24,671 nt of DNA from a virus, in IMG/VR virus record IMGVR_UViG_3300032308_000454, positions 1-24,671 of that record; one strand, given 5' to 3'. Each line of letters starts with the position of its first letter. Position 1 is the first letter of the stretch. Positions 2,168-24,671 of this stretch are shown one piece after another. A program made the position numbers and the translations under genes. The notes beneath the pieces were generated by a model that was not told the origin of the DNA, ran no database searches, and saw only the letters and a program-made list of their open reading frames with translations.

Positions 2168-2484
2168 TTCTTTGCCGTCTTAGCTGCTTGTTTAAACGCT
2201 TCTTTAGTTGGTGCGCCTTTAGTGCCAGGCTTACGCATCTTTTCTACTGGCTCACCTTCGGCTTTTTGGCGTTCAATACGTTCTTGCTTTTTATGAATGT
2301 TGGCATATAAGCCAGGTTTAGCAGCCATTTCTTTTTCCTTCACAGTTTTAACAGCTTTAAAAGTTTTTCTTGGTCTTACCTTTTTAACTTGTAACGTGGG
2401 TTCAATAATTTTAATAACTTTTGGTTCTGGTTGTTTATGCGGCTCAAAAAAATGCAGCACCCAGCTAACTAGTTGTTTGATCAT
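2164..2484 (-). CDS. Small phage protein with hydrophobic N-terminus and basic conserved C-terminus, 106 aa
   Basis: I place the start at ATG 2484 because a strong GGGGGA ribosome site lies 6 bp upstream; an in-frame TTG at 2502 lacks one. Residues 1-13 (MIKQLVSWVLHFF) are amphipathic or hydrophobic, and residues 14-52 are Pro/Lys-rich. The last 54 residues start MAAKPGLYANIHKKQERIER and include the PVEKMRKPGTKGAPTKEAFK segment. That C-terminal block matches a small stand-alone phage protein family of unknown function. An internal ATG at 2328, with AAGGA 7 bp upstream, could produce the short form alone. The first 20 bp overlap the end of the GroES-like gene. Confidence 0.72.
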   Translation of the reverse strand: MIKQLVSWVLHFFEPHKQPEPKVIKIIEPTLQVKKVRPRKTFKAVKTVKEKEMAAKPGLYANIHKKQERIERQKAEGEPVEKMRKPGTKGAPTKEAFKQAAKTAKK

Positions 2485-2803
2485 TATGTTCCCCCGTAAC
2501 AAAACATACGTCTTGCCATGACATTATCAGATAACGTTGGCCATTAGTAAAGTATTCTTGATATTTTAGATATTCGGCTTTCGGATCGTCACTCATGGTG
2601 CCAAATCTTACGTGTTCGCCTACTTGTACGGGCATGGGTTGGCGGCGGTTGCCAATCTTTTTACCTAGTCCTACTGCAACCACGGTACCCATGTTGTCAT
2701 GTTCTTTGTTAGATACATGAATAACTGAACTTAAAACACGAACATCCGGCCTGACAACTATTTTGTCGGCCAGCGGTTTAAGTATAAAATCGGCATCAGC
2801 CAT
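2465..2803 (-). CDS. groES: GroES-like cochaperonin (Cpn10 family)
   Basis: Phage cochaperonin that would cap the host GroEL ring, as T4 gp31 does, to fold phage proteins such as the major capsid protein. It is 112 residues, slightly longer than bacterial GroES (about 97). Cpn10 features are visible: LKPLADKIVVRP at residues 8-19, GTVVAVGLGKK (39-49), VQVGEHVRFG (59-68), a YLKYQEYFTNGQRYLIMSWQ stretch, and a C-terminal DVCFV. The segment between about 20 and 35 (RVLSSVIHVSNKEHDN) would be the mobile loop that contacts GroEL. The start has GGAGAA about 7 bp upstream. A terminator hairpin lies just upstream, so this gene probably opens its own message or depends on read-through. Confidence 0.85.
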   Translation of the reverse strand: MADADFILKPLADKIVVRPDVRVLSSVIHVSNKEHDNMGTVVAVGLGKKIGNRRQPMPVQVGEHVRFGTMSDDPKAEYLKYQEYFTNGQRYLIMSWQDVCFVTGEHNDQTTS

Positions 2804-5315: not shown

Positions 5316-5644
5316 ATTGAACCCTTTCTACGGTTAGCCGATAATGTTTGCCAGATTTCTGTAATGCGTATTTCGTGCATCCGTTTGTTTTCTAGGGTCT
5401 TAAATTCTTTGTAAGCCCCTACCCATTCATCAACTGCATTTTTGTAGGATGGGCTATCTATAGCTTGCGCTTCACGTTCTGCTACCGTACCGCTAGATAG
5501 TAAAAATGCGTGGCTTTTAGCCTGTTTAATAAGTTCTTCTAACCGTTTTACTTCGCCAGATAATTCGGCGTGTTCTTCATCCGTTTCGGATAAATAAATT
5601 AATGCTTTTTCAACCCTGCTATCGCTTAACTTTTCTAAACTCAT
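5312..5644 (-). CDS. Conserved coiled-coil phage protein, 110 aa
   Basis: Helical protein with an early ALIYLSETDEEHAELSGEVK segment (14-33), a central GTVAEREAQAIDSPSYKNAV (52-71) and a basic C-terminus ending NRRKGSI. This pattern ('AL.YLxETDEExAxL ... GTVAERxAxA ... W.xxxANRRxGxI') recurs in many phage early regions without an assigned function. A coiled coil is likely at about 18-45 and 75-95. Its TGA overlaps the ATG of the 33-aa peptide and its start overlaps the TGA of the preceding gene, both as ATGA. Confidence 0.75.
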   Translation of the reverse strand: MSLEKLSDSRVEKALIYLSETDEEHAELSGEVKRLEELIKQAKSHAFLLSSGTVAEREAQAIDSPSYKNAVDEWVGAYKEFKTLENKRMHEIRITEIWQTLSANRRKGSI

Positions 5645-6047: not shown

Positions 6048-6610
6048 TGTTCAGCCATTGCATCCGCAATACCTTGAAAAGTTTTACTTCTAACTTTTGC
6101 CGATTTATTGTCTGAATACCATTTAGGTAATTTTTTGCCTGTAGGTGAAATATAAAATTCGCCTTTATCAACAATATTTGTATGTTTAAGTAACGGTAAA
6201 TTTTTAAGCCATAAACAAGTAGTTTTTTGCGCTTTATCACCAAATTGCCACGGTTGAATTATTTGATCTGGCTTACGGTAAACGTTACTCATAATTCCAA
6301 CTGGATTTTCTACTGCAATTTTTGGAATATTTGCATTAGCAATTGCTAAGAAAAAATCAATACCTTGTTGTTGCCTACCATCTTCACGTTTTTTAGCAAA
6401 ATGCTTTGCACCGCTTACTGCTAAATGGGTGCATGGTGGAAAAGCAATCATCAAATCCCATCCATCATTAATAATTTGAAACACATCACCTTGATAATGC
6501 GGACCAGCAACATCAGTAGGAAGAATGTCGCAAGATACAGCTTCATGTCCTTTTTTAATAAAAGCATCCCTAACCGCACCAGAATATTCGCAAGCTATTA
6601 ATATTTTCAT
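6038..6610 (-). CDS. DNA cytosine-5 methyltransferase-like protein
   Basis: Predicted SAM-dependent cytosine methyltransferase, 190 aa, the compact phage form (bacterial Dcm enzymes exceed 300 aa). The SAM-binding region MKILIACEYSGAVRDAF lies at 1-17, catalytic PPC at 58-60 in AFPPCTHLAVSGAKHFAKK, and ENP at 101-103 (motif VI, canonical ENV) in IAVENPVGIMSN. TTCLWLKNLP (130-139) and a C-terminal VRSKTFQGIADAMAEQW (motif X-like) complete the set. The separate target-recognition domain of larger enzymes is very short. No restriction enzyme is adjacent, so it is probably an orphan protecting phage DNA against host restriction. Its start overlaps the stop of the replication gene. Confidence 0.85.
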   Translation of the reverse strand: MKILIACEYSGAVRDAFIKKGHEAVSCDILPTDVAGPHYQGDVFQIINDGWDLMIAFPPCTHLAVSGAKHFAKKREDGRQQQGIDFFLAIANANIPKIAVENPVGIMSNVYRKPDQIIQPWQFGDKAQKTTCLWLKNLPLLKHTNIVDKGEFYISPTGKKLPKWYSDNKSAKVRSKTFQGIADAMAEQWS

Positions 6611-6975
6611 GATATTTCCCTAATTTTTTCTGCAATTCTTTTTCTTAACTCTGGCCAACCCTCGCCTGATCTTGGTTTAACACCAACTTCTGCGGCTTTC
6701 TTCATTGTTAAATCATCATCCGAATACCACAATAATGCCGGCGGTGCCTTTTCTTTAAAATCTAATTCATCTTCCCAACGCCACCCATTTAACCAAGTTG
6801 ACGCATGGGGCATAAAATCTGGTTCTGTTTGCTTTAGCTGCCAGTACCTAACATGGTTTGGCAATGCTTCCAAAGCAGCTTCTTGATCTTCAGGCTTTAA
6901 TCTAATAAAAGCATCAAAAGCTTTTTTCTTATTAACTTTTCTTGGGTATAACTTCCAAAACGTTTCAAAACTCAT
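6607..6975 (-). CDS. Replication protein, C-terminal loader-type domain only
   Basis: 122 aa. The N-terminal block FETFWKLYPRKVNKKKAFDA (3-22), the PEDQEAALEALPNHVRYW helix and the hallmark FMPHASTWLNGWRWEDEL (54-71) form the domain found at the C-terminus of many phage replisome organisers and DnaT/O-like helicase loaders. Here it stands alone without the N-terminal winged-helix origin-binding domain. The C-terminal 45 residues (GVKPRSGEGWPELRKRI) are basic. It is the first gene after the minus-strand leader and promoter (7047-6997), with AAAGGA 5 bp upstream of the ATG, as expected for a replication operon. Confidence 0.75.
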   Translation of the reverse strand: MSFETFWKLYPRKVNKKKAFDAFIRLKPEDQEAALEALPNHVRYWQLKQTEPDFMPHASTWLNGWRWEDELDFKEKAPPALLWYSDDDLTMKKAAEVGVKPRSGEGWPELRKRIAEKIREIS

Positions 6976-6996: not shown

Positions 6997-7047
6997 ACCA
7001 ATTTATTTGGTAAATATAACTTTACTAAAGATTACTTGAGTTGTAAA
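6997..7047 (-). promoter_or_regulatory. Minus-strand promoter with 5'-end hairpin (element P3)
   Basis: -35 TTTACA (7047-7042), 17-bp spacer, -10 TAAAGT (7024-7019), 7 bp, then inverted repeat ACCAA/TTGGT with a 5-nt loop (7011-6997). The spacer closely matches that of the plus-strand promoter at 9764 (the last eight spacer bases AATCTTTAG are the same). The repeat lies where the transcript should begin, about 15 bp before the AAAGGA ribosome site of the replication gene. A TATATT overlapping the -10 could be an alternative. Confidence 0.6.
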
Positions 7048-7457: not shown

Positions 7458-7688
7458 TTACGGAATAAACAACTCCGGCCAAATTAAATGCCAATTATTT
7501 GGAAAAAGCTTTTTTCTGCTTACTTTGCCGTTTGTTTCTTTTTCTATCGTGGCCGCTATCATCATTAATGGTGCAGCCGGAATAGCGTTATTGTTACGCC
7601 ATTGGCATACAGCCTGAACCGATACGCCGCATATTTTGGCCACTTTTGCTGGCCTACCCAACAAATCAATTATTTGTGCATCAGTCAT
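7458..7688 (-). CDS. Cro/YdaS-like HTH transcriptional regulator
   Basis: 76 aa. The helix-turn-helix is LGRPAKVAKICGVSVQAVCQ (10-29), followed by WRNNNAIPAAPLMMIAATIE and a C-terminal KVSRKKLFPNNWHLIWPEL. This matches the small Cro/YdaS family of phage regulators, in which 'VSxKxLFPxxWxxIWPEL' is a common ending. It is transcribed away from the plus-strand early genes, separated from them by a 98-bp divergent promoter region, the usual arrangement for a repressor or Cro-type switch. An AAAGGA site lies 9 bp before the ATG. No second repressor (CI-type) gene is in the window. Confidence 0.85.
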   Translation of the reverse strand: MTDAQIIDLLGRPAKVAKICGVSVQAVCQWRNNNAIPAAPLMMIAATIEKETNGKVSRKKLFPNNWHLIWPELFIP

Positions 7689-7715: not shown

Positions 7716-7767
7716 TTTACATTGGTTCAATTTTACTTTACATTCTGAATTACGGCAATGTTGCCGT
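7716..7767 (+). promoter_or_regulatory. Early promoter with 5'-end hairpin (element P1)
   Basis: -35 TTTACA (7716-7721), exact 17-bp spacer, -10 TACATT (7739-7744), 7 bp, then the perfect inverted repeat ACGGCAA-TG-TTGCCGT (7752-7767). Transcription should begin at or within a base or two of the repeat. The AAGGGGG ribosome site and ATG 7787 follow. The element drives the ssDNA-binding/exonuclease operon and is nearly a twin of the one at 9764-9814. Confidence 0.65.
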
Positions 7768-7786
7768 GAGTAACAAGGGGGAAAAA

Positions 7787-8044
7787 ATGGAATTTAGATA
7801 CGATATGGAACAAGATTTACTAGAACAATACAATGACCAGGTTCAAACGGAATTCCGTCTTGAAGAAATATTTGGCGCATTGGAACGTGCAGAGCCATTA
7901 GATGATGAAGAAATTGCGTTACTTCGCCACTCTTGCGGTATGCCAAAAAAAACCATCCAGCAAATTAAAGCAGAAGCGCAGAAACGCCTTTTGCGTGACA
8001 TTTTTATTGATGCAACAAATAATTTAATTAAGGAAAAAAAATGA
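7787..8044 (+). CDS. Acidic hypothetical early protein, 85 aa
   Basis: Start taken at ATG 7787, preceded by AAGGGGGAA; an in-frame GTG at 7766 falls inside the promoter hairpin and is rejected. The protein is acidic and helical over its first 55 residues (MEFRYDMEQDLLEQYNDQ ... ERAEPLDDEEIALLRHS) and turns basic (KAEAQKRLLRDIF, NNLIKEKK). GMPKKTIQQIKAEAQ could be a short helix-turn segment. No family recognised. Its TGA overlaps the ATG of the ssDNA-binding gene, so the two are coupled. Confidence 0.7.
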   Translation: MEFRYDMEQDLLEQYNDQVQTEFRLEEIFGALERAEPLDDEEIALLRHSCGMPKKTIQQIKAEAQKRLLRDIFIDATNNLIKEKK

Positions 8045-8679
8045 TAGTAGCCCGTCAAAACAGTACAAGTAGCGATTTTAAATTACCACCAGCTGGTAGT
8101 TTTAGCGCACGTTTATATCGCCTAATCGACATTGGCACCCAAACCACCGAATGGATGGGTAAGAAAAAAATGCAGCGCAAAATCATAGCTATGTTTGAAT
8201 TACATGGTGAAGATAATGATGGCCAGCCATTGTTGACCAATGACGGTAAACCGCTGGTTGTATCCAAACGCTACACGTTATCCCTAGATGAAAAAGCTAC
8301 ATTGCGTAAAGATTTAGAAGCTTGGCGTGGCAAAGCTTTTACCCAGCAAGAATTGGATGGTTTTAACCTGGAAGTATTGCTAGGCAAATTTTGCATGGTA
8401 TCCATCACCCATACAGAACATGACGGTAAACAATACGCCAACATTTCTAGCATTAGCCAGGTACCTTCTGCGCTTAAAAAATTAGGCGAACCAAAAGGTG
8501 TTAATGAACTGATGATTTTTACGCTAGATCAGTTTGATCAAGGTAAGTTTGAAAAGCTTTCAGAAGGCTTACAAGGCGTAATCAGAAAATCAGCAGAATA
8601 CCGCAACACATTTGAACCTAATTCACCACCTGTTACTTCCTCACCAATGGAAGAAATGGATGATGACATCCCATTTTAA
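8041..8679 (+). CDS. Phage ssDNA-binding/replication protein with SSB-type acidic tip (NGO0469-like)
   Basis: 212 aa. The N-terminal PPAGSFSARLYRLIDIGTQ (16-34) starts an OB-fold-like region, followed by MQRKIIAMFELHGED, KPLVVSKRYTLSLDEKATLR and GFNLEVLLGKFCMVSITHTE. A flexible Pro/Ser linker (about 190-203) leads to the C-terminus MEEMDDDIPF, nearly identical to the DDDIPF tip by which bacterial SSB recruits partner proteins. I recognise the family as the phage 'replication initiation protein, NGO0469 family'. It probably coats single strands and recruits host SSB-interacting enzymes. It is coupled to the exonuclease downstream. Confidence 0.8.
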   Translation: MIVARQNSTSSDFKLPPAGSFSARLYRLIDIGTQTTEWMGKKKMQRKIIAMFELHGEDNDGQPLLTNDGKPLVVSKRYTLSLDEKATLRKDLEAWRGKAFTQQELDGFNLEVLLGKFCMVSITHTEHDGKQYANISSISQVPSALKKLGEPKGVNELMIFTLDQFDQGKFEKLSEGLQGVIRKSAEYRNTFEPNSPPVTSSPMEEMDDDIPF

Positions 8680-8688
8680 GGTGGTCAC

Positions 8689-8883
8689 ATGAAATGCATT
8701 GAATGTAAATGGTTTGTGGGTACTGCTAACGATCAATACGGGGTTTGCAAACGCTACCCTGTAGTGCAGAACAAAACGCAACATGATTGGTGCGGTGAAT
8801 ATGTATCTAAGATATGTGAAATATCGGAAGCAGTTGCAGAACTCCAAGCAAAACGTGGAAGAAAGCCAAAAAATGATAATTAA
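8689..8883 (+). CDS. Small Cys-rich (zinc-knuckle-like) protein, 64 aa
   Basis: MKCIECKWFV (C3, C6), GVCKRYP (C20) and HDWCGEY (C35), with a second Cys group in SKICEIS, form a putative zinc site. The C-terminus is basic (QAKRGRKPKNDN), and the RGRKP motif resembles an AT-hook, which would suit minor-groove DNA binding. Small 'MKCxxCKWxxxxxxxxGxCxRYPxxxxKxxxxxWCGEY' proteins are frequent in phage early operons; their function is unknown. The stop overlaps the start of the exonuclease gene by 11 bp. GGTGGTC lies before the ATG. Confidence 0.72.
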   Translation: MKCIECKWFVGTANDQYGVCKRYPVVQNKTQHDWCGEYVSKICEISEAVAELQAKRGRKPKNDN

Positions 8884-9661
8884 AGAACGTCAATCTGAAT
8901 CTGGTCATTGGTACGCCCGTGACGGTAGCCCAGCTTATACCGTACTTGGTAAAAATGGCCAGCCCCGTAATACAACGCTTCGTGACGCACGATCCAATGA
9001 TTTGGTGCCTAGTGTTTCCGGTATTTTGAACGTGGCCGCCAAGCCAGGTTTAGATACTTGGAAGCAGCAGCAAGTTTTATTAGCTGCGTTAACTTTGCCT
9101 AGAAAATCTGATGAACCTGAACAAGATTGGCTTGAACGGGTAATGATGGATTCTAAGCAAACTGGCCGTGTAGCTGCTGAACGTGGAACTGCTATTCACG
9201 CAATTATTCAAGAATACTTTGAAGGTAAAGTAGTCAATGAATATGCAACCATGTGTGATGCAGTCAAGGAAGCTATAGATGGGCATTTTGGGAAGCTTTT
9301 ATACGTGCCTGAAGTATCCTTTGCCCACCCGCTAGGATACGGCGGTAAGGCTGATTTAATAGCTGCTGCTATGCCTAATTTTGATGGTGTTTGCATTGAT
9401 TTCAAAACCAAAGAAACAGAAGATATTTCTACGGTTGATGTTTATGCAGAACATGGTATGCAGTTGGCTGCTTACCGTGAAGGCTTCAAAATTCCAAAGG
9501 CTAGATGTGCCAATGTATTTGTTGGCTACAAAATGGTTGGCGGCAATGTTGTGTTTACCGGCGTTAAATTGATTGAACATGATCCAATTAACCTAGACCG
9601 TTACTGGCTTATGTTTACAAAATTGCTAGAATTTTGGCAATTAAAAAACAATCATTCTTAA
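8873..9661 (+). CDS. RecB/Cas4-like PD-(D/E)XK exonuclease
   Basis: 262 aa counted from ATG 8873; an in-frame ATG at 8783 would overlap the Cys-rich gene by 100 bp and lacks a good ribosome site. The RecB-family nuclease signature is complete: GTAIHAIIQEYFEG with His 109, GYGGKADLIAA with Asp 161, VCIDFKTKE with Asp 176 and Lys 178, and the HGMQLAAYREG motif with Gln 197 and Tyr 201. It would resect double-strand DNA ends for recombination or degrade host DNA. Its partner is probably the ssDNA-binding protein upstream; no Red-beta/RecT/Erf annealase is in view. The operon ends at a strong terminator (9724-9762). Confidence 0.9.
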   Translation: MIIKERQSESGHWYARDGSPAYTVLGKNGQPRNTTLRDARSNDLVPSVSGILNVAAKPGLDTWKQQQVLLAALTLPRKSDEPEQDWLERVMMDSKQTGRVAAERGTAIHAIIQEYFEGKVVNEYATMCDAVKEAIDGHFGKLLYVPEVSFAHPLGYGGKADLIAAAMPNFDGVCIDFKTKETEDISTVDVYAEHGMQLAAYREGFKIPKARCANVFVGYKMVGGNVVFTGVKLIEHDPINLDRYWLMFTKLLEFWQLKNNHS

Positions 9662-9723
9662 TTTTACAAAGCCGTTAACTAGACAATGAAGGATGCAACA
9701 ATTTGGGAATTTTTCTAGTTTCA

Positions 9724-9762
9724 GCCCAATTTGCAATAGTTGCCAAATTCAGGCTTTTTTTT
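9724..9762 (+). terminator. Rho-independent terminator after the exonuclease gene
   Basis: GCC-AATTT-GCAA / TTGC-AAATT-GGC stem with small bulges and a TAG loop, followed by eight Ts (9755-9762). The -35 of the next promoter begins two bases beyond the T-run, so the two transcription units are cleanly separated. The 62 bp between the exonuclease stop and the stem hold nothing else recognisable. Confidence 0.85.
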
Positions 9763-9763
9763 A

Positions 9764-9814
9764 TTTACAAGTGAAGCAATCTTTAGTACATTAACCCTAC
9801 CGCAATGTTGCGGT
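9764..9814 (+). promoter_or_regulatory. Promoter with 5'-end hairpin (element P2)
   Basis: -35 TTTACA (9764-9769), 17-bp spacer, -10 TACATT (9787-9792), 6 bp, then inverted repeat ACCGCAA-TG-TTGCGGT (9799-9814). -35, spacing and -10 are identical to the promoter at 7716; the hairpin core GCAATGTTGC is identical while the arm changes from ACG/CGT to ACC/GGT, keeping pairing. AAGGA and ATG 9834 follow. Confidence 0.65.
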
Positions 9815-9833: not shown

Positions 9834-10223
9834 ATGAACCGTAATCAAAAATCAAAAGCAGTTTGGACTTATGAATTAGATAATACTAAAACGTTTGCAG
9901 AACAAGCAAACCATGACAAAATTGATTACAAGTATGTAATTAATGAAGCTTTAACCGGCATCATATTTGTGGCTGCTGTACTTGCTGCATTATTCTTAAC
10001 TGGTTGTTCAACGCCTGGCACCGTATATAGCCAAGCCCCTACACAACAGTTAGTATTGGATAAGCAAGTAGCTGGATTAACTAGAAATGAAATTATTAAT
10101 GGCGTTACTGAATGTGAAGGTAACGGTTTACGTGCCCATGTAATTACCACTAAACGATCAATTAATGGTTTTAGTGCGGATATACCAATCGAAGTAACTT
10201 GTATGCCTAAGTACCGATATTAG
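9834..10223 (+). CDS. Lipoprotein-like membrane-anchored protein, 129 aa
   Basis: Start at ATG 9834 (AAGGA 7-8 bp upstream). A 40-residue polar N-terminus precedes a hydrophobic helix (GIIFVAAVLAALFL, about 42-55) that ends in LTGC, a lipobox with Cys 58. The long polar N-region is unusual for a lipoprotein signal, so it may instead stay as a signal-anchored protein. The C-terminal domain (GVTECEGNGLRAHVITTKRS, then FSADIPIEVTCMPKY) has two cysteines and beta-strand character and resembles a conserved phage hypothetical. As an early lipoprotein with its own promoter it could act in superinfection exclusion; that is inference. Confidence 0.7.
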   Translation: MNRNQKSKAVWTYELDNTKTFAEQANHDKIDYKYVINEALTGIIFVAAVLAALFLTGCSTPGTVYSQAPTQQLVLDKQVAGLTRNEIINGVTECEGNGLRAHVITTKRSINGFSADIPIEVTCMPKYRY

Positions 10224-18724: not shown

Positions 18725-18975
18725 GGGTTGTAATATGGCACTTTAAAAGGCTGGCCGTTAACAGTAATATTAATAAATCCCACCGGATTTGATGGAAGTG
18801 TAGCAGCCCCTTGAGTTGCTGTGGTTGCTGAAGTAAAGTTTATTATATTAAGAAAAAACTGCTGCCAGGCTCTAGTTGGCCGTTTTGTTTGGCCATCCAA
18901 AAATTCTGATTGTGGGTATGGATTACTTTGGCTGTTTGTCCAAACGCCATTACCTGAATTATTACTAGTAGCCAT
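18721..18975 (-). CDS. Conserved small structural-region protein, 84 aa
   Basis: Starts MATSNNSGNGVWTNSQSNPY, continues LDGQTKRPTRAWQQFFLNII and ends GAATLPSNPVGFINITVNGQ plus KVPYYNP. The C-terminal 'GAATLPxNPVGFxxVTxxGxxxKVPYY' block is typical of small virion-region phage proteins next to the gp10-like gene. Possibly a tail or head decoration protein; no direct evidence. It follows the gp10-like stop by one base and is coupled to the cupin-like gene downstream. Confidence 0.68.
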   Translation of the reverse strand: MATSNNSGNGVWTNSQSNPYPQSEFLDGQTKRPTRAWQQFFLNIINFTSATTATQGAATLPSNPVGFINITVNGQPFKVPYYNP

Positions 18976-21174
18976 TTAGTTTTCCCCAGCTTCAGCTTTA
19001 AGATTAGCCGCCACAATAACGGCTTTAATTGGATCAGTAACTACCACTTCAAATATACGATCACGGGCTTGGCCTAATCTGCGCCAAATTGCACGGTTTT
19101 TATATGCACCCTGCAAACCTATACTTACCCAATATTCTTTAGACCAAGTAGAACCGCCATCATTTGACCACCGCAACATAGCCTGTGGATTTGCACCCAA
19201 AGTAGCCAAATTGTTTTGGCCAGCAATTGCTAAACCGGCTACGGCAACACCAGCCACCGCATTTGTTGGGCTTGTAGAACCAGTTACATTCCCTGATAAA
19301 CCAACACCAGGCTGAAACAATATCTGCAATTCAGAAAAGTATTGGCGTTGAAAATCTGATACCAAATGGGGCGCACGGCGTAATCTACGTATTTCGCCAC
19401 CGTCATCAGTATAAACATTTGGATCAAGCATATAAATCTGGCCATTTTCCCAATCGCCAACCAAATTCATGTTTGCAAAATGAGTATGGCAATTGCCACG
19501 GTGCCGGTGGTAAACGTTCTGCTTATCTACCCATAGCCATTTGTGCCACATTCCGGTGGCAATGTCGTAAGCCCAAGTTAAATCAAGTGTTGGAAAGCTA
19601 ATAACGTAAACTTCATGGCCTTCAATTAAATATGTCCATGCCCGTGCATCACTAATTTCTGCGCCTTCAATGCTATTTTCTACAGCATGGGTACTAATTC
19701 TGGTTGGTGTGTAACCATTCATCATCATTACTTGGCCATCACCACGAATATTTTTGCTTAAATAAGCAAATGAATTACCTACTCGTGCTACCGAAAACTT
19801 GGCCGAAATACCGTGCTGGGTGGATGTGCCAGGAATACGCTGGAAAGCAAATGGGAATAATCCGCTATTTACCCAAACTTCACTAGATACTTCACCCATC
19901 AAATAAACTTCCCTGTGATCCACAATAAGTGAAACCAAGTTATCTGGCGCACCATCTTTTGAACTAAAACTTAATGATGGTGAAATTGGTGAAAGCGGCG
20001 CAGTAGAACCATATTGTTGTGTACCTGGCCTGTTATAAACAAAATAGTTATCCACAACATCAACTACATCAGCACCTTGAAATGCGCCATCATTTGCCGG
20101 CATAACGCTAAAGTTAAGACCGTAAACTGTGGTTGATGAAACAGTTTGTGAAGTAGAAACAACATAAGTACCAGCCCCGCCAGCACCCGTACCAAACGTT
20201 AATGTAAGTGTTAACCCTGTACCGTTACCACTTGTGATGGTTGTAGATGGTGTGCCTGGTTGTATTGTGTAACTACCGTTGCTAACCAAAGTTAAACCAG
20301 TTACGGCACCACTACCGCCAATTGTTGCTACCGTATAAGTAGCTTGTGCAGTATATACACCGCCATTGACCGTAATCGTGTCACCAACTGCATAACCAGT
20401 ACCGGCTGCGGTAATGCTAAAACTGATTGCAGCAGAACCGCCCAAGGCCGTAATAATCGTTCCAGCCGTAATGCCGGTGCCTTGTAATGTTTGGCCTGGG
20501 TATAACGTGCCACTAGTAACAGCAGTTACAGTTAATGTAGTGCCTGAAATGCTTCCAGTTACTATTGCGCCAGCAGTTGCAGAATTAAAATCTTGTTGTG
20601 TGGGTATTGTGTGACTAATGTTAATTGTATAAGTACCAACGCCGCCAGTTCCAGTTCCCAAAGCCGTAATAACTGTTCTATCAGTAATTCCTAAACCAAA
20701 TAATTGCTGCCCTGCAGCAATTGTGCCGCTTTTCATTAAAGAAACGGTTAACGTTGTACCAGATATGGTTCCTTCAAAAACAGCGGATGCCGGATTAGAA
20801 ACACGCCATGTGTAACGATTTGTTCCGTCAACAATGTATAAATTGATGCCATTATCTGTAATGCCAACAATTCCGCTAGATGTATTTAATCTGCCAATTA
20901 ATGTAGGTGTTAAGCTAGTATTTACAGCATAAACATAAGAACCACAAACAATGGCCATGTAATTGCCGCTAGATATATTACGCATCCCACGAACTTCAGC
21001 GTGGTTTAAAGTTAATTTGGTAACTAATCCTGGCGTTGGATAAAGTGCTACCACCCCGTACATACCAGGCTGTTTTAATGGATCAATTTCTGGTCTGAAA
21101 TTAATACATTCTTGATCATCCTGGTAAATACTAGGTGCTTCGTATGATGGACCTACAAATCCGAAATCAGGCAT
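18976..21174 (-). CDS. P22 gp10-like tail hub / packaged-DNA stabilisation protein with inserted modules
   Basis: 732 aa; P22 gp10 is about 470. It joins the tail accessory factor to the needle and plugs the head after packaging. The family start GFVGPSYEAPSIYQDDQECI (5-24) is followed by INFRPEIDP, propeller blades (GIVGITDNGINLYIVDGTNR) and later conserved GADVVDVVDNYFVYNRPGTQ (367-386), VDHREVYLMGEVSSEVW and TLDLTWAYDIATGMWHKW. Residues about 131-356 are an insertion of Gly/Thr-rich beta modules (see 20107-20784); this accounts for most of the extra length. The C-terminal 60 residues (AMLRWSNDGGSTWSKEYW, RRLGQARDRIFEVVVTDP) are typical of the family. Confidence 0.88.
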   Translation of the reverse strand: MPDFGFVGPSYEAPSIYQDDQECINFRPEIDPLKQPGMYGVVALYPTPGLVTKLTLNHAEVRGMRNISSGNYMAIVCGSYVYAVNTSLTPTLIGRLNTSSGIVGITDNGINLYIVDGTNRYTWRVSNPASAVFEGTISGTTLTVSLMKSGTIAAGQQLFGLGITDRTVITALGTGTGGVGTYTINISHTIPTQQDFNSATAGAIVTGSISGTTLTVTAVTSGTLYPGQTLQGTGITAGTIITALGGSAAISFSITAAGTGYAVGDTITVNGGVYTAQATYTVATIGGSGAVTGLTLVSNGSYTIQPGTPSTTITSGNGTGLTLTLTFGTGAGGAGTYVVSTSQTVSSTTVYGLNFSVMPANDGAFQGADVVDVVDNYFVYNRPGTQQYGSTAPLSPISPSLSFSSKDGAPDNLVSLIVDHREVYLMGEVSSEVWVNSGLFPFAFQRIPGTSTQHGISAKFSVARVGNSFAYLSKNIRGDGQVMMMNGYTPTRISTHAVENSIEGAEISDARAWTYLIEGHEVYVISFPTLDLTWAYDIATGMWHKWLWVDKQNVYHRHRGNCHTHFANMNLVGDWENGQIYMLDPNVYTDDGGEIRRLRRAPHLVSDFQRQYFSELQILFQPGVGLSGNVTGSTSPTNAVAGVAVAGLAIAGQNNLATLGANPQAMLRWSNDGGSTWSKEYWVSIGLQGAYKNRAIWRRLGQARDRIFEVVVTDPIKAVIVAANLKAEAGEN
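20107..20784 (-). repeat. Inserted Gly/Thr beta-module array inside the gp10-like gene
   Basis: Encodes residues 131-356 of the gp10-like protein. Module A (consensus GSISGTTLTVT...SGT...GQ.L.GTGIT.GT.ITALGTGTGG.GTY) appears once intact (about 132-198). A second copy begins at about 204 and stops at TIITALGG (239-246). It resumes only at GTGAGGAGTYVVSTSQTV (328-345). Between these lies an unrelated module B (SITAAGTGYAVGDTITVNGG, GAVTGLTLVSNGSYT). So B sits nested within the second A. Confidence 0.75.
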
Positions 21175-21842: not shown

Positions 21843-22217
21843 TTAATTACTCCAAGGCAATGGTAATTGCGTATAAAGCAATTGATTATAAACATCTATT
21901 TGTGCATTTATTTCTGTGGCTATTTTTTCTTGCATTTCTTCTATTTTTTGCGGCGTTAATGCTGTAATCAACCATCCTAAAACTTGTTCTTCAGTTAACT
22001 CTGCATAAGGCGTAAATGTTGTATTGTTATCAAGAATTAAATCTTGGGTAACATGAATATTTGATATATATGAATTAATCAAAGGATGGGTTTGTTCCAT
22101 ACCTTCTTTATTTTTTGCGCCAATATATTCAGCAATTATGCTAAAAACAACATTTTCCTGCCCCATATATTCTGGGTAAGATTTTAATGTAGTAATTTTC
22201 CAAATATAAGTAATCAT
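21843..22217 (-). CDS. Small conserved phage protein, 124 aa (DUF7936-like)
   Basis: N-terminus MITYIWKITTLKSYPEY with the 'Y.WKI..L' opening, beta-strand core VVFSIIAEYIGAKNKEGMEQ and a C-terminal TPYAELTEEQVLGWLITALT (68-87), then a helix and LPLPWSN. The pattern '(T/S)YxWKIxxL ... FxPxxELTEExVLGWI ... LPW' is one I associate with DUF7936, often found among tail genes. It may act in tail-fibre assembly. A distant relative is encoded at 23213-23527. The start overlaps the gp4-like stop. Confidence 0.7.
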   Translation of the reverse strand: MITYIWKITTLKSYPEYMGQENVVFSIIAEYIGAKNKEGMEQTHPLINSYISNIHVTQDLILDNNTTFTPYAELTEEQVLGWLITALTPQKIEEMQEKIATEINAQIDVYNQLLYTQLPLPWSN

Positions 22218-23203
22218 TGCGTGAAACCCCCTGTAAGAATCCAGCCAGCATCTTTGGCCTTACTCATTAATAGCGCATCCTGATAACGTGATACCTGCAT
22301 TGGTGCCATATTTGTACGTTTTATTGTAGATTTGGCCTGTGCCGCAAATGCACCAACTTGTGCTGCCAATACCGGATTTGTCTTGCCATACATTGGCATT
22401 AATCGTTCTGCTAGACACCAGCGCAATGCCAAAGTATAACCTTGTGGCAAGTTTGCATCATCATAAAGTGAAGCATAATTTCTGAAAATTGTTTCAGCAA
22501 ATATGTGTACTTCACCTTGGCTTGGGCTTGGCCAAAAGAACAAATTACCTGAATCTACGCCAGGATTAAAATACAAAGCTTTAGGCCACGGACCACTTAA
22601 TGTTTTAAGGCCAATAGAATTGTAATTATCAAGATTTAATATACCAACTGGATAGTCAATGCCACCATTAATTACTGGACTACCGCCTTGGCTTGTAGCA
22701 ATACGAACATAAGCAGAATTAATTACTAATGGTTTTTGATAGTAAGCTTGTATTGTTTGGGAAGCTACTGCCGTTGGATAGTTAACATTAAGCAAATATG
22801 TACCAACTTCATTAACGTTACCGCCGGCACCAGTTAAATTAGATAAAATCTGTGTTCCGTTTAAAATTCCCGTACCACTTAAATATTGTCCTTGTGTTAC
22901 TGCACCTTGCAAAACGTTTGTAACAGTCAATACTTTGCCAGAAATTGAACCAGTAAATTGTGCGCCAACAAAGTTTAGGGTTTGTGGGTTTGGTCCTATT
23001 GTGTATTGAACTTGGCCTGGTACAACGTTAAAGATAATTTCAGTAACGTTAAAAACCATCATATCTTCGTTAGACCATTGGTCAATTATGCCATTTAGCA
23101 TTACCAAAGCATCTTGCGCTGCATCATTTGATGGAACTTCACCAGCTTCTAATGCGCCAATATCCTTTAATGCGCCACTAATAATATCGAACGGTGTTGG
23201 CAT
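22214..23203 (-). CDS. P22 gp4-like tail accessory factor (head-tail adaptor) with inserted module
   Basis: 329 aa; P22 gp4 is about 166. It binds the portal after packaging and forms the platform for gp10. Family start: MPTPFDIISGALKDIGALEA (1-20), DALVMLNGIIDQWSNEDMMV (31-50) and QVQYTIGPN. After residue 80 a Gly/Thr module (GSISGKVLTVTNVLQGAVTQ, then GTGILNGTQILSNLTGAGG) interrupts the fold up to about 156. The family sequence resumes with PLVINSAYVRIATSQGGSPV and later FAETIFRNYASLYDDANLPQ, GYTLALRWCLAERLMPMYGK (the final helices). The same module class is in gp10. Overlaps the downstream DUF7936-like gene by 4 bp. Confidence 0.87.
   Translation of the reverse strand: MPTPFDIISGALKDIGALEAGEVPSNDAAQDALVMLNGIIDQWSNEDMMVFNVTEIIFNVVPGQVQYTIGPNPQTLNFVGAQFTGSISGKVLTVTNVLQGAVTQGQYLSGTGILNGTQILSNLTGAGGNVNEVGTYLLNVNYPTAVASQTIQAYYQKPLVINSAYVRIATSQGGSPVINGGIDYPVGILNLDNYNSIGLKTLSGPWPKALYFNPGVDSGNLFFWPSPSQGEVHIFAETIFRNYASLYDDANLPQGYTLALRWCLAERLMPMYGKTNPVLAAQVGAFAAQAKSTIKRTNMAPMQVSRYQDALLMSKAKDAGWILTGGFTQ
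22736..22966 (-). repeat. Module A-type insertion in the gp4-like gene
   Basis: Encodes residues about 80-156: FTGSISGKVLTVTNVLQG, GQYLSGTGILNGTQIL, NEVGTYLLNVNYPTAVAS. It aligns by eye to module A of the gp10-like protein in the order GSISG, LTVT, GQxLxGTGI, GTxI, GTYxxN, with GT-rich turns. It lies between VQYTIG and the conserved INSAYVR strand of the family. Confidence 0.7.
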
Positions 23204-23534: not shown

Positions 23535-24671
23535 TTACCTTGCTAGTGCATTTTTGAATGGGTTTTCAGCAAAGGCTGCATATATATATATCCCACCGTT
23601 AGTATTGTAAGCAGCATCAGTATTTCTAATTTTAAATCCATTACTTAAACCATCAAATGAAGCAAATGTTCCTTCTGCGTTAACAAGATTAGGATATAAC
23701 TCGTATTGTTCAACGTTATTTATATCCCTTGATGTGTCTAATATTCGCCAATTCGCTGTTGAATCTGTTCTTTTAATCATAATCCAACGGCTACGCATAC
23801 CCGTATAGACAAATGGACCATCAACAGAACCATTGCCCGTATAGCTACCAAATGCAGAATAACCTGGTATTGCAGCAAAACAGTAAGCTATTAATTTTTG
23901 TGAAGTTGATGTACTTAGTGCATTACCAACAAGACTAAATACAGTAGATGTTGGTGCGGTATTTCCCCAAGTTCCTGCACCAGTTACAACAGCAGAAGAT
24001 AAATCTAACATTATGCGGGCACTTGCCCCCAAAGATACTTGATAACAATACCAATTATCTACAACATCCCTATTTTTTACTATATAAAAACTAGGCGCAA
24101 CTCCAAGTCCATGCCCTATAGTGTATGTTGAAGCATTATTTGGAACTCCAGTAAATGAAACAACACTAAATCCTGATGTTGTATTAGCACTTACTGATGA
24201 TGTTATAGAACCATTTGTATTAGTGACGGGTGCAGAATCAGACGCTCTCCATGCCCAGTCTACTAAAGTTACTCCTGTCCCATAATCATTGTTTCCTAAT
24301 GTGTAACCATTAGAATTAAACGCTGTAAAGTAATTTGATAAAGTCGTTTCAGCATTGGTTAAATTTGAGTTTAAATAATTGGTAAGACCACGAACAGAAT
24401 CTACTAATTGATGGTTGAAAGCATTGTTTCTTGCTTTTTCCCATACAAAGTCAGGACTAAAGTTAAGTGATGTAATGCTCCCACCACTTGTTCCGAATCC
24501 ATTTCTAAGAACAACATCAAAGTAGTCATTACCTTTTGGGATTGTTGGTGTAGCTAAGTTAAATGTATTGAGTGCTACAAATCCTGTAGGTGGCGTGTAA
24601 GAAAACGGTCTTTGGCCAAAGTTTGCAAATGCAGCAACTTGTGAACCACCACCATCACTAACCGCTGGAAA
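23535..24671 (-). CDS. Tail/adhesion protein with SPRY-like repeats (DUF7483-like), N-terminus outside window
   Basis: Continuous reading from the right edge gives 378 residues; the TTG at 24032 is only an internal codon, because the frame is open upstream. The window part begins FPAVSDGGGSQVAAFANFGQ and includes VALNTFNLATPTIPKGNDYF and SPDFVWEKARNNAFNHQLVD, then VDWAWRASDSAPVTNTNGSI, TYTIGHGLGVAPSFYIVKNR, RSRWIMIKRTDSTANWRILD and IYIYAAFAENPFKNA at the C-terminus. The 'PDFVWxKxR.NxxxHxLxDSVRG', 'HGLGxAPxxxIVKxR' and 'YxAFAExPF' motifs mark the DUF7483/LamG-like adhesion domain found in phage receptor-binding proteins, here probably present twice. Location before gp4-like supports a virion role. 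Confidence 0.82.
   Translation of the reverse strand, partial: FPAVSDGGGSQVAAFANFGQRPFSYTPPTGFVALNTFNLATPTIPKGNDYFDVVLRNGFGTSGGSITSLNFSPDFVWEKARNNAFNHQLVDSVRGLTNYLNSNLTNAETTLSNYFTAFNSNGYTLGNNDYGTGVTLVDWAWRASDSAPVTNTNGSITSSVSANTTSGFSVVSFTGVPNNASTYTIGHGLGVAPSFYIVKNRDVVDNWYCYQVSLGASARIMLDLSSAVVTGAGTWGNTAPTSTVFSLVGNALSTSTSQKLIAYCFAAIPGYSAFGSYTGNGSVDGPFVYTGMRSRWIMIKRTDSTANWRILDTSRDINNVEQYELYPNLVNAEGTFASFDGLSNGFKIRNTDAAYNTNGGIYIYAAFAENPFKNALAR

Follow-up and report, generated by a model that had tools for sequence, protein, structure and literature searches.

The window described here is the whole of a 24,671-nucleotide stretch of virus DNA, positions 1 to 24,671 of IMG/VR virus record IMGVR_UViG_3300032308_000454. 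Judging by its genes (head closure protein Hc3, terminase small subunit, RusA, endolysin and a P22 Cro/YdaS-type repressor), it is part of a P22-like podovirus genome. A search for named phages with DNA-level similarity to the window found none. The subject of this text is a small element that occurs three times in it: a promoter followed, 6 or 7 nucleotides past the -10 box, by an inverted repeat that would form a hairpin at the very 5' end of the transcript. The three promoters and their hairpins are as follows.

7716 to 7744, plus strand: site 1 promoter, -35 TTTACA at 7716-7721, 17 bp, -10 TACATT at 7739-7744
7752 to 7767, plus strand: site 1 hairpin ACGGCAATGTTGCCGT (ACGGCA-AUGU-UGCCGU), 7 nucleotides after the -10, predicted transcription start (+1) at A7752
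9764 to 9792, plus strand: site 2 promoter, -35 TTTACA at 9764-9769, 17 bp, -10 TACATT at 9787-9792
9799 to 9814, plus strand: site 2 hairpin ACCGCAATGTTGCGGT (ACCGCA-AUGU-UGCGGU), 6 nucleotides after the -10, predicted +1 at A9799
7019 to 7047, minus strand: site 3 promoter, -35 TTTACA at 7047-7042, 17 bp, -10 TAAAGT at 7024-7019
6997 to 7011, minus strand: site 3 hairpin ACCAAATAAATTGGT (ACCAA-AUAAA-UUGGU), 7 nucleotides after the -10, before a replication-initiation-like gene with ATG at 6975

The first two promoters are twins, exactly as an earlier sequence-only reading of this DNA had described them, and at both the start codon follows 19 nucleotides after the hairpin (ATG 7787 and ATG 9834). 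The pattern TTTACA-N17-TACATT is found in the window only at 7716-7744 and 9764-9792, on the plus strand. For a looser TTTACA/TACATT pattern with N15-19, 0.07 matches are expected in shuffled sequence, and 0 of 100 shuffles reach two. A third site, on the minus strand at 7047-6997, had been overlooked by that reading. This hairpin has its position and ends in common with the other two, while its stem and loop are different. When the whole window was scanned for promoters with a hairpin at +1, these three sites came up, along with one weaker match at 18742 that was judged to be chance. The feature is confirmed as real, and it is wider than was first stated.

The core GCAATGTTGC was also considered as a repeated element of its own, and rejected, given that allowing one mismatch yields 7 copies where 4.1 are expected, which is no enrichment. 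What is distinctive is the placement and the pairing, not the core itself.

The genes around the three sites are these.

7787 to 8044, plus strand: first gene of the site 1 operon, 85 amino acids, without family match
8041 to 8679, plus strand: gene B, phrog_862, of unknown function, with a weak likeness to phage single-stranded DNA-binding proteins; used as query for relatives
8873 to 9661, plus strand: gene C, PD-(D/E)XK exonuclease, phrog_298, last in the site 1 operon
9834 to 10223, plus strand: first gene of the site 2 transcript, 129 amino acids, without family match
6607 to 6975, minus strand: first gene of the site 3 transcript, replication-initiation-like, phrog_270
7458 to 7688, minus strand: P22 Cro/YdaS-type repressor, divergent from site 1 and presumed owner of operators in the promoter spacers

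The site 1 operon, with its exonuclease and the weakly SSB-like gene B, resembles that of lambda PL. Site 3, which runs in the opposite direction into a replication gene, resembles lambda PR. Site 2 comes after the site 1 operon and its structured 3' region.

Several hundred loci from relatives were collected in scans of IMG/VR, for which the queries were genes B and C, a distant gene B and the repeat itself. In these relatives the site 1 promoter is kept at a constant distance from the divergent cro-like gene, and the hairpin lies 63-64 nucleotides from the cro-like start in nearly all close ones. One locus (L003) carries some 215 extra nucleotides between the cro start at 5433 and a hairpin that is otherwise unchanged. 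For site 3, gene E seldom worked as an anchor in relatives, since the genes upstream of it differ. In L197, L199 and the L118 group, the repressor has a -10-like TAAGAT of its own, about 6 nucleotides before its ATG. The repressor message would therefore be leaderless, unlike those of the hairpin-led promoters.

Hairpin alignments that are compiled from recognised hairpins lean towards pairing. Two tests were free of this bias. In the first, segments were defined by the promoter, a Y-AC-N-GT-G frame, a ribosome-binding site and an ATG; pairing of the interior was not required, and a gap of 5-8 nucleotides to the -10 was allowed. Stems of at least 4 bp are formed by 48 of 50 distinct segments, the first 2-3 inner pairs hold in 84% (7% for shuffled interiors), and the gap is always 6 or 7 nucleotides.

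In the second test, promoters were defined only by the -35, the operator half-site CTTTAGT and the -10, with no downstream criterion. An AC..GT hairpin then begins 6-7 nucleotides past the -10, at the +1 predicted from sequence, in 38 of 40 distinct start contexts; at control offsets from 10 to 26 the counts are 3, 0, 0, 0 and 0 of 40. In the exceptions, L187 and L023, the leader is long, and a 9-bp stem of nucleotides 2-10 with 62-70 is predicted in it. In this model their 5' end can also be sequestered, with one 5' nucleotide free; the overall fold energy of these leaders is not exceptional (z -0.31).

A third count, of distinct AC..GT hairpins by distance from the -10, gives 33 at 6 nucleotides, 13 at 7, and at most 4 anywhere else between 0 and 45. 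It was limited to AC..GT because a gap scan of all promoter-like sequences yields about 18 chance hairpins per offset. The hairpin is locked to the promoter.

The sequence-only reading had taken a compensatory change in the arms as a sign of selection on pairing, and had proposed aligning relatives to count compensatory against unpaired changes. That alignment bears the claim out. For pairs 3 and 4, every one of the 96 cells from 48 distinct hairpins holds a standard pair (12 G.U, 0 A.C), a result to be read as strong but not as a formal probability, because not all cells are independent events. A.C is found solely at the loop-closing position. The covariation score is 0.61 for 26 sequences of 16 nucleotides, where slid controls reach at most 0.09, and 0.64 for 20 sequences of 14 nucleotides (at most 0.18), both from rows compiled from recognised hairpins.

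Individual changes can be followed at orthologous sites. At site 2, G3-C14 and C3-G14 replace each other (ACC..GGT and ACG..CGT). Elsewhere C5-G12 has become A5-U12 (L039), C2-G15 has become U2.G15 (L012, L040, and L039 at site 1) and G4-C13 has become G4.U13 (L005, L006, L019, L037). In relatives that are about 50% identical in gene B, the hairpin is shortened to 14 or 15 nucleotides, as in ACGGTATGTGCCGT, ACGGTAAATACCGT, ACCGCACTTGCGGT, ACCCTACTTAGGGT and ACTGCATGGTGCAGT, and still starts 6-7 nucleotides past the -10. In the 14-nucleotide class the fifth pair can be C-G, U.G or U-A. Stem sequence, loop and length (13-16 nucleotides) are all variable, sometimes inside one genome. Compensatory changes, intermediates that are G.U and not A.C, and a stem free in sequence and length together back selection on RNA pairing. 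The element is very probably an RNA hairpin at the 5' end of the transcript. At site 1 of six loci (L249, L251, L255, L265, L266 and L280) the leader carries tandem hairpins, the second, of AC..GTGA type (ACCC..GGGTGA), coming after the first.

The ends of the hairpin are less free. Throughout the set of the second test, TAC stands at the 5' end and GT at the 3' end, with a G next to it. T-A is a common pair for initiation. The 3' G-U plays no part in initiation, and the best reading of its constancy is that it keeps nucleotides 1 and 2 paired. The G that follows might stack on the final pair of the stem. The first base of the loop is nearly always A.

When 48 leaders were folded, the hairpin was retained in 46, and nucleotide 1 was paired in 47 of the minimum-energy folds. 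The rest of the leader, site 2 included, is mostly open and purine-rich in these predictions, which leaves the ribosome-binding site single-stranded; in a 119-nucleotide fold of site 1 it pairs weakly with coding sequence. The leaders differ little in length, most having 37-40 nucleotides counted through the ATG.

The same type of hairpin precedes unrelated genes, as is expected of a cassette. Eight contigs of about 35 kb have none to four such promoters each, nearly all before small early genes. These counts are lower bounds, since contig G010 scored none even though its locus L255 has the site 1 hairpin. In a sister lineage with an erf gene (MW202674, MW202520 and IMG/VR contigs), hairpins stand in the same place with different letters. 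The stems there are CTGGC/GCCAG, CTGAC/GTCAG, CTAGC/GCTAG, ATGGC/GCCAT, CTATC/GATAG and GTCC/GGAC, and the covariation score is 0.50 against at most 0.17 when slid. The feature is not universal: a hairpin 5-8 nucleotides after a -10 is absent from Rhodoferax phage P26218, Xanthomonas phage PBR31 and parts of Stenotrophomonas phage S72 and MW202545. Among the +1 hairpins no Rfam family was recognised, and up to E = 1 the window gives only RF02932, elsewhere; hairpins this short are hardly detectable by such a search.

In contigs G001 (near 24222) and G003 (near 1614) a hairpin AACACTACCTATGGTGTT stands 8 nucleotides after a promoter-like -10 (both minus strand; loci L284 and L285). The gene that follows encodes 305 amino acids and may be a scaffold protein, hinting at a late promoter with a similar leader.

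Two other RNAs lie close to the three sites. Between gene C and the site 2 promoter, within 9667-9763, a putative pseudoknot RNA occupies 9677-9729 on the plus strand, with a T-run after it. Its stem AACTAGA/TCTAGTT would pair 9677-9683 with 9714-9720, and the pseudoknot TTGGG/CCCAA 9703-9707 with 9725-9729. Pairing of both helices is complete (100%) across nine diverse relatives, although either side has undergone changes. A third helix that had been guessed for this RNA was dropped, its position falling in the wrong alignment columns. It has no Rfam match, and is a candidate for a new structured RNA at the 3' end of an early operon. Between the cro-like gene and the site 3 promoter lies a Betaproteobacteria-1 RNA (RF02932; 7175-7295, minus strand, 77.7 bits), which is also found in L121, at 111 bits. 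Together with the head closure protein of Rhodoferax phage P26218, 41% identical, these matches make a betaproteobacterial host likely. Among 84,980 species genomes of bacteria, no gene B relative was confirmed as a prophage.

Elsewhere in the window, the head closure protein and its neighbour (18976-21174 and 22214-23203, both minus strand) have insertions that match the same PHROGs, phrog_21413 and phrog_38233 (tail-fibre-like), which suggests a shared mobile domain. A GroES-like co-chaperonin is phage-borne (2465-2803, minus strand, phrog_3188); it is annotated too in MW202674, MW202520 and PBR31.

What might such a hairpin do? The proposal is that it shields the 5' end. Each repressor-controlled early promoter would start its transcript at the A of T-A-C, 6-7 nucleotides past the -10. 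The first 13-16 nucleotides of RNA would fold at once into a hairpin of 4-6 bp with a small loop, closed by A1-U and C2-G. This would be followed by the invariant G and by about 20 nucleotides of unstructured, purine-rich, ribosome-binding leader. Because nucleotide 1 is itself paired, an RppH-type pyrophosphohydrolase and 5'-end-tethered RNase E should both act poorly on the triphosphate end. The remaining leader would be covered by ribosomes, and early messenger RNAs (mRNAs) should therefore be long-lived and well expressed, protected as by the 5' stem-loops of ompA, papA and T7 gene 10.

There are precedents. In Escherichia coli, bla mRNA is made more stable by a hairpin at its 5' end, which hinders RppH in converting that end; the Bacillus subtilis enzyme requires at least 2 unpaired nucleotides (PMC3997798). 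In Cupriavidus necator, a member of the Burkholderiales, mRNA is stabilised by the T7 gene-10 stem-loop, and expression is 1.5- to 3-fold higher with it (PMC6146998). Given this anatomy and these precedents, the phages probably cap their early transcripts with a minimal hairpin. The explanation as a whole, decay included, is considered probable.

Several points weigh against it. The +1 is a prediction, and the longer lifetime of the mRNA is what we infer from the anatomy. The host is likewise deduced, from RF02932 matches and a distant Rhodoferax phage relative. Weak hairpins exist, such as ACTC..GAGT at -2.3 kcal/mol, and ACTTAATAACGAGT is predicted to be unfolded when alone. The A that opens the loop and the G after the stem are conserved beyond what simple protection requires, and the erf lineage appears to leave one 5' nucleotide unpaired.

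Alternatively, the hairpin could be a translation element that prevents other structure from forming in the leader and its ribosome-binding site, or provides a fixed stand-by distance, and so acts on initiation and not on decay. The narrow leader length and the open, purine-rich remainder fit this, and 5' stem-loops can boost expression via translation as well as via stability (PMC6146998). An insulator need not begin at nucleotide 1, however, and would explain neither the A1-U and C2-G pairs nor why the hairpin is locked to the -10. This makes it unlikely as the main role, though it deserves some weight.

The hairpin could also be bound by a phage or host factor, or act on the emerging RNA polymerase by antitermination or anti-pausing, like boxB with N or HK022 put, and thereby mark the early operons. 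It does sit on transcripts resembling those of the lambda PL and PR operons, and the near-constant A at the start of the loop and the invariant G after the stem also speak for it. Yet stem, loop and length vary freely, sometimes within one genome, unlike in any known boxB or put. Transcription from site 1 moreover meets the conserved structured element and its T-run before it gets to site 2, where a separate promoter and hairpin are present, so read-through is apparently not the aim. Antitermination of the boxB or put kind was rejected on these two grounds, and the wider idea of a bound factor is rather doubtful.

A different use of the same shield would be as a mark that tells self from non-self. 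The phage would speed general mRNA decay or 5'-end processing during infection, and messages with a paired first nucleotide alone would survive. This is improbable. If it were true, a structural cap without sequence identity would define the early phage transcriptome.

That the inverted repeat is a DNA operator at +1, for a dimeric regulator, had been offered as an alternative by the sequence-only reading, and the dyad is indeed near-perfect, with the gene of a Cro/YdaS-type repressor beside it. A dyad recognised as DNA would show G.U and A.C alike, because these are the same lesion read from two strands; the single-sided stem changes are G.U on the transcribed strand, not A.C. Pairing is kept and sequence is not, also within a genome. 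Most interior positions carry 0.3-0.9 bits, and with a dyad length of 13-16 bp no conserved half-site at a conserved spacing was found. A better candidate for the operator is present in the spacers between -35 and -10, where a palindrome (ACTAAAGnnnnCTTTAGT in one group, GTTAAGnnnnCTTAAC in a second) is conserved in sequence across promoters. In the window it is seen at two sites.

9770 to 9787, no strand assigned: presumed operator palindrome in the site 2 spacer, AGTGAAG-CAAT-CTTTAGT
7024 to 7041, no strand assigned: presumed operator palindrome in the site 3 spacer, ACTCAAG-TAAT-CTTTAGT

This spacer palindrome looks like the real repressor operator, which makes a second, symmetric one at +1 very unlikely, and the alternative was rejected.

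An effect on the initial transcript, with the hairpin behind RNA polymerase speeding promoter escape or preventing slippage or backtracking, would suit the fixed position relative to the -10, but a hairpin of 14-16 nucleotides folds only once the polymerase has made more than about 25, that is after escape, and with no other evidence in its favour this is most improbable.

These uncultured phages offer a natural set of dozens of sequence-different hairpins at one fixed position. The set defines the minimal structure that matters: the first two pairs, a small loop and the following G. It makes the question of how phages protect their early messages open to direct testing. Early promoters and transcription starts of these freshwater phages, which are abundant, can also be predicted from it by rule. 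The compact 5' element could also be tried in Burkholderiales expression vectors.

5'-terminal stem-loops as such are textbook stabilisers, known from single genes. Known boxB and put elements are sequence-specific, and are not at +1. The hairpins of lambda and P22 boxB and of HK022 put are likewise in early phage transcripts; those described here are not sequence-conserved. Nor do they resemble a lambda-type nut site: there is no conserved boxB loop, as loop and stem sequences vary, and no boxA before the hairpin, which begins at the predicted +1 with nothing transcribed upstream. The start-associated sequences with inverted repeats (ESAS) of Cluster K mycobacteriophages are also a repeated inverted-repeat cassette upstream of many genes, conserved across genomes and of unknown mechanism, but they are sequence-conserved 17-bp repeats tied to translation starts, where the present hairpins are tied to the transcription start and conserve pairing (PMC3203893).

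The T7 gene 10 leader is a phage 5' stem-loop before a ribosome-binding site, reported to be stabilising and to raise expression in a Burkholderiales host (PMC6146998). It is made by a phage RNA polymerase, whereas the hairpins here are on sigma-70-type promoters, with AC..GU ends and variable sequence. The ompA and papA stabilisers of Escherichia coli, as far as they are described in PMC3997798 (which cites Emory 1992 and Bouvet and Belasco 1992), have, as is predicted here, a hairpin at the very 5' end, few or no unpaired nucleotides and an open ribosome-binding site downstream. In the present hairpins it is structure rather than sequence that is selected. Those are individual host genes; here protection is the proposed role of a short hairpin whose sequence changes freely. 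No description of such a cassette was found in the open-access literature. The principle is known; what seems new is that a group of phages places it, as a stereotyped, covarying cassette without fixed sequence, at almost all of its early promoters under repressor control.

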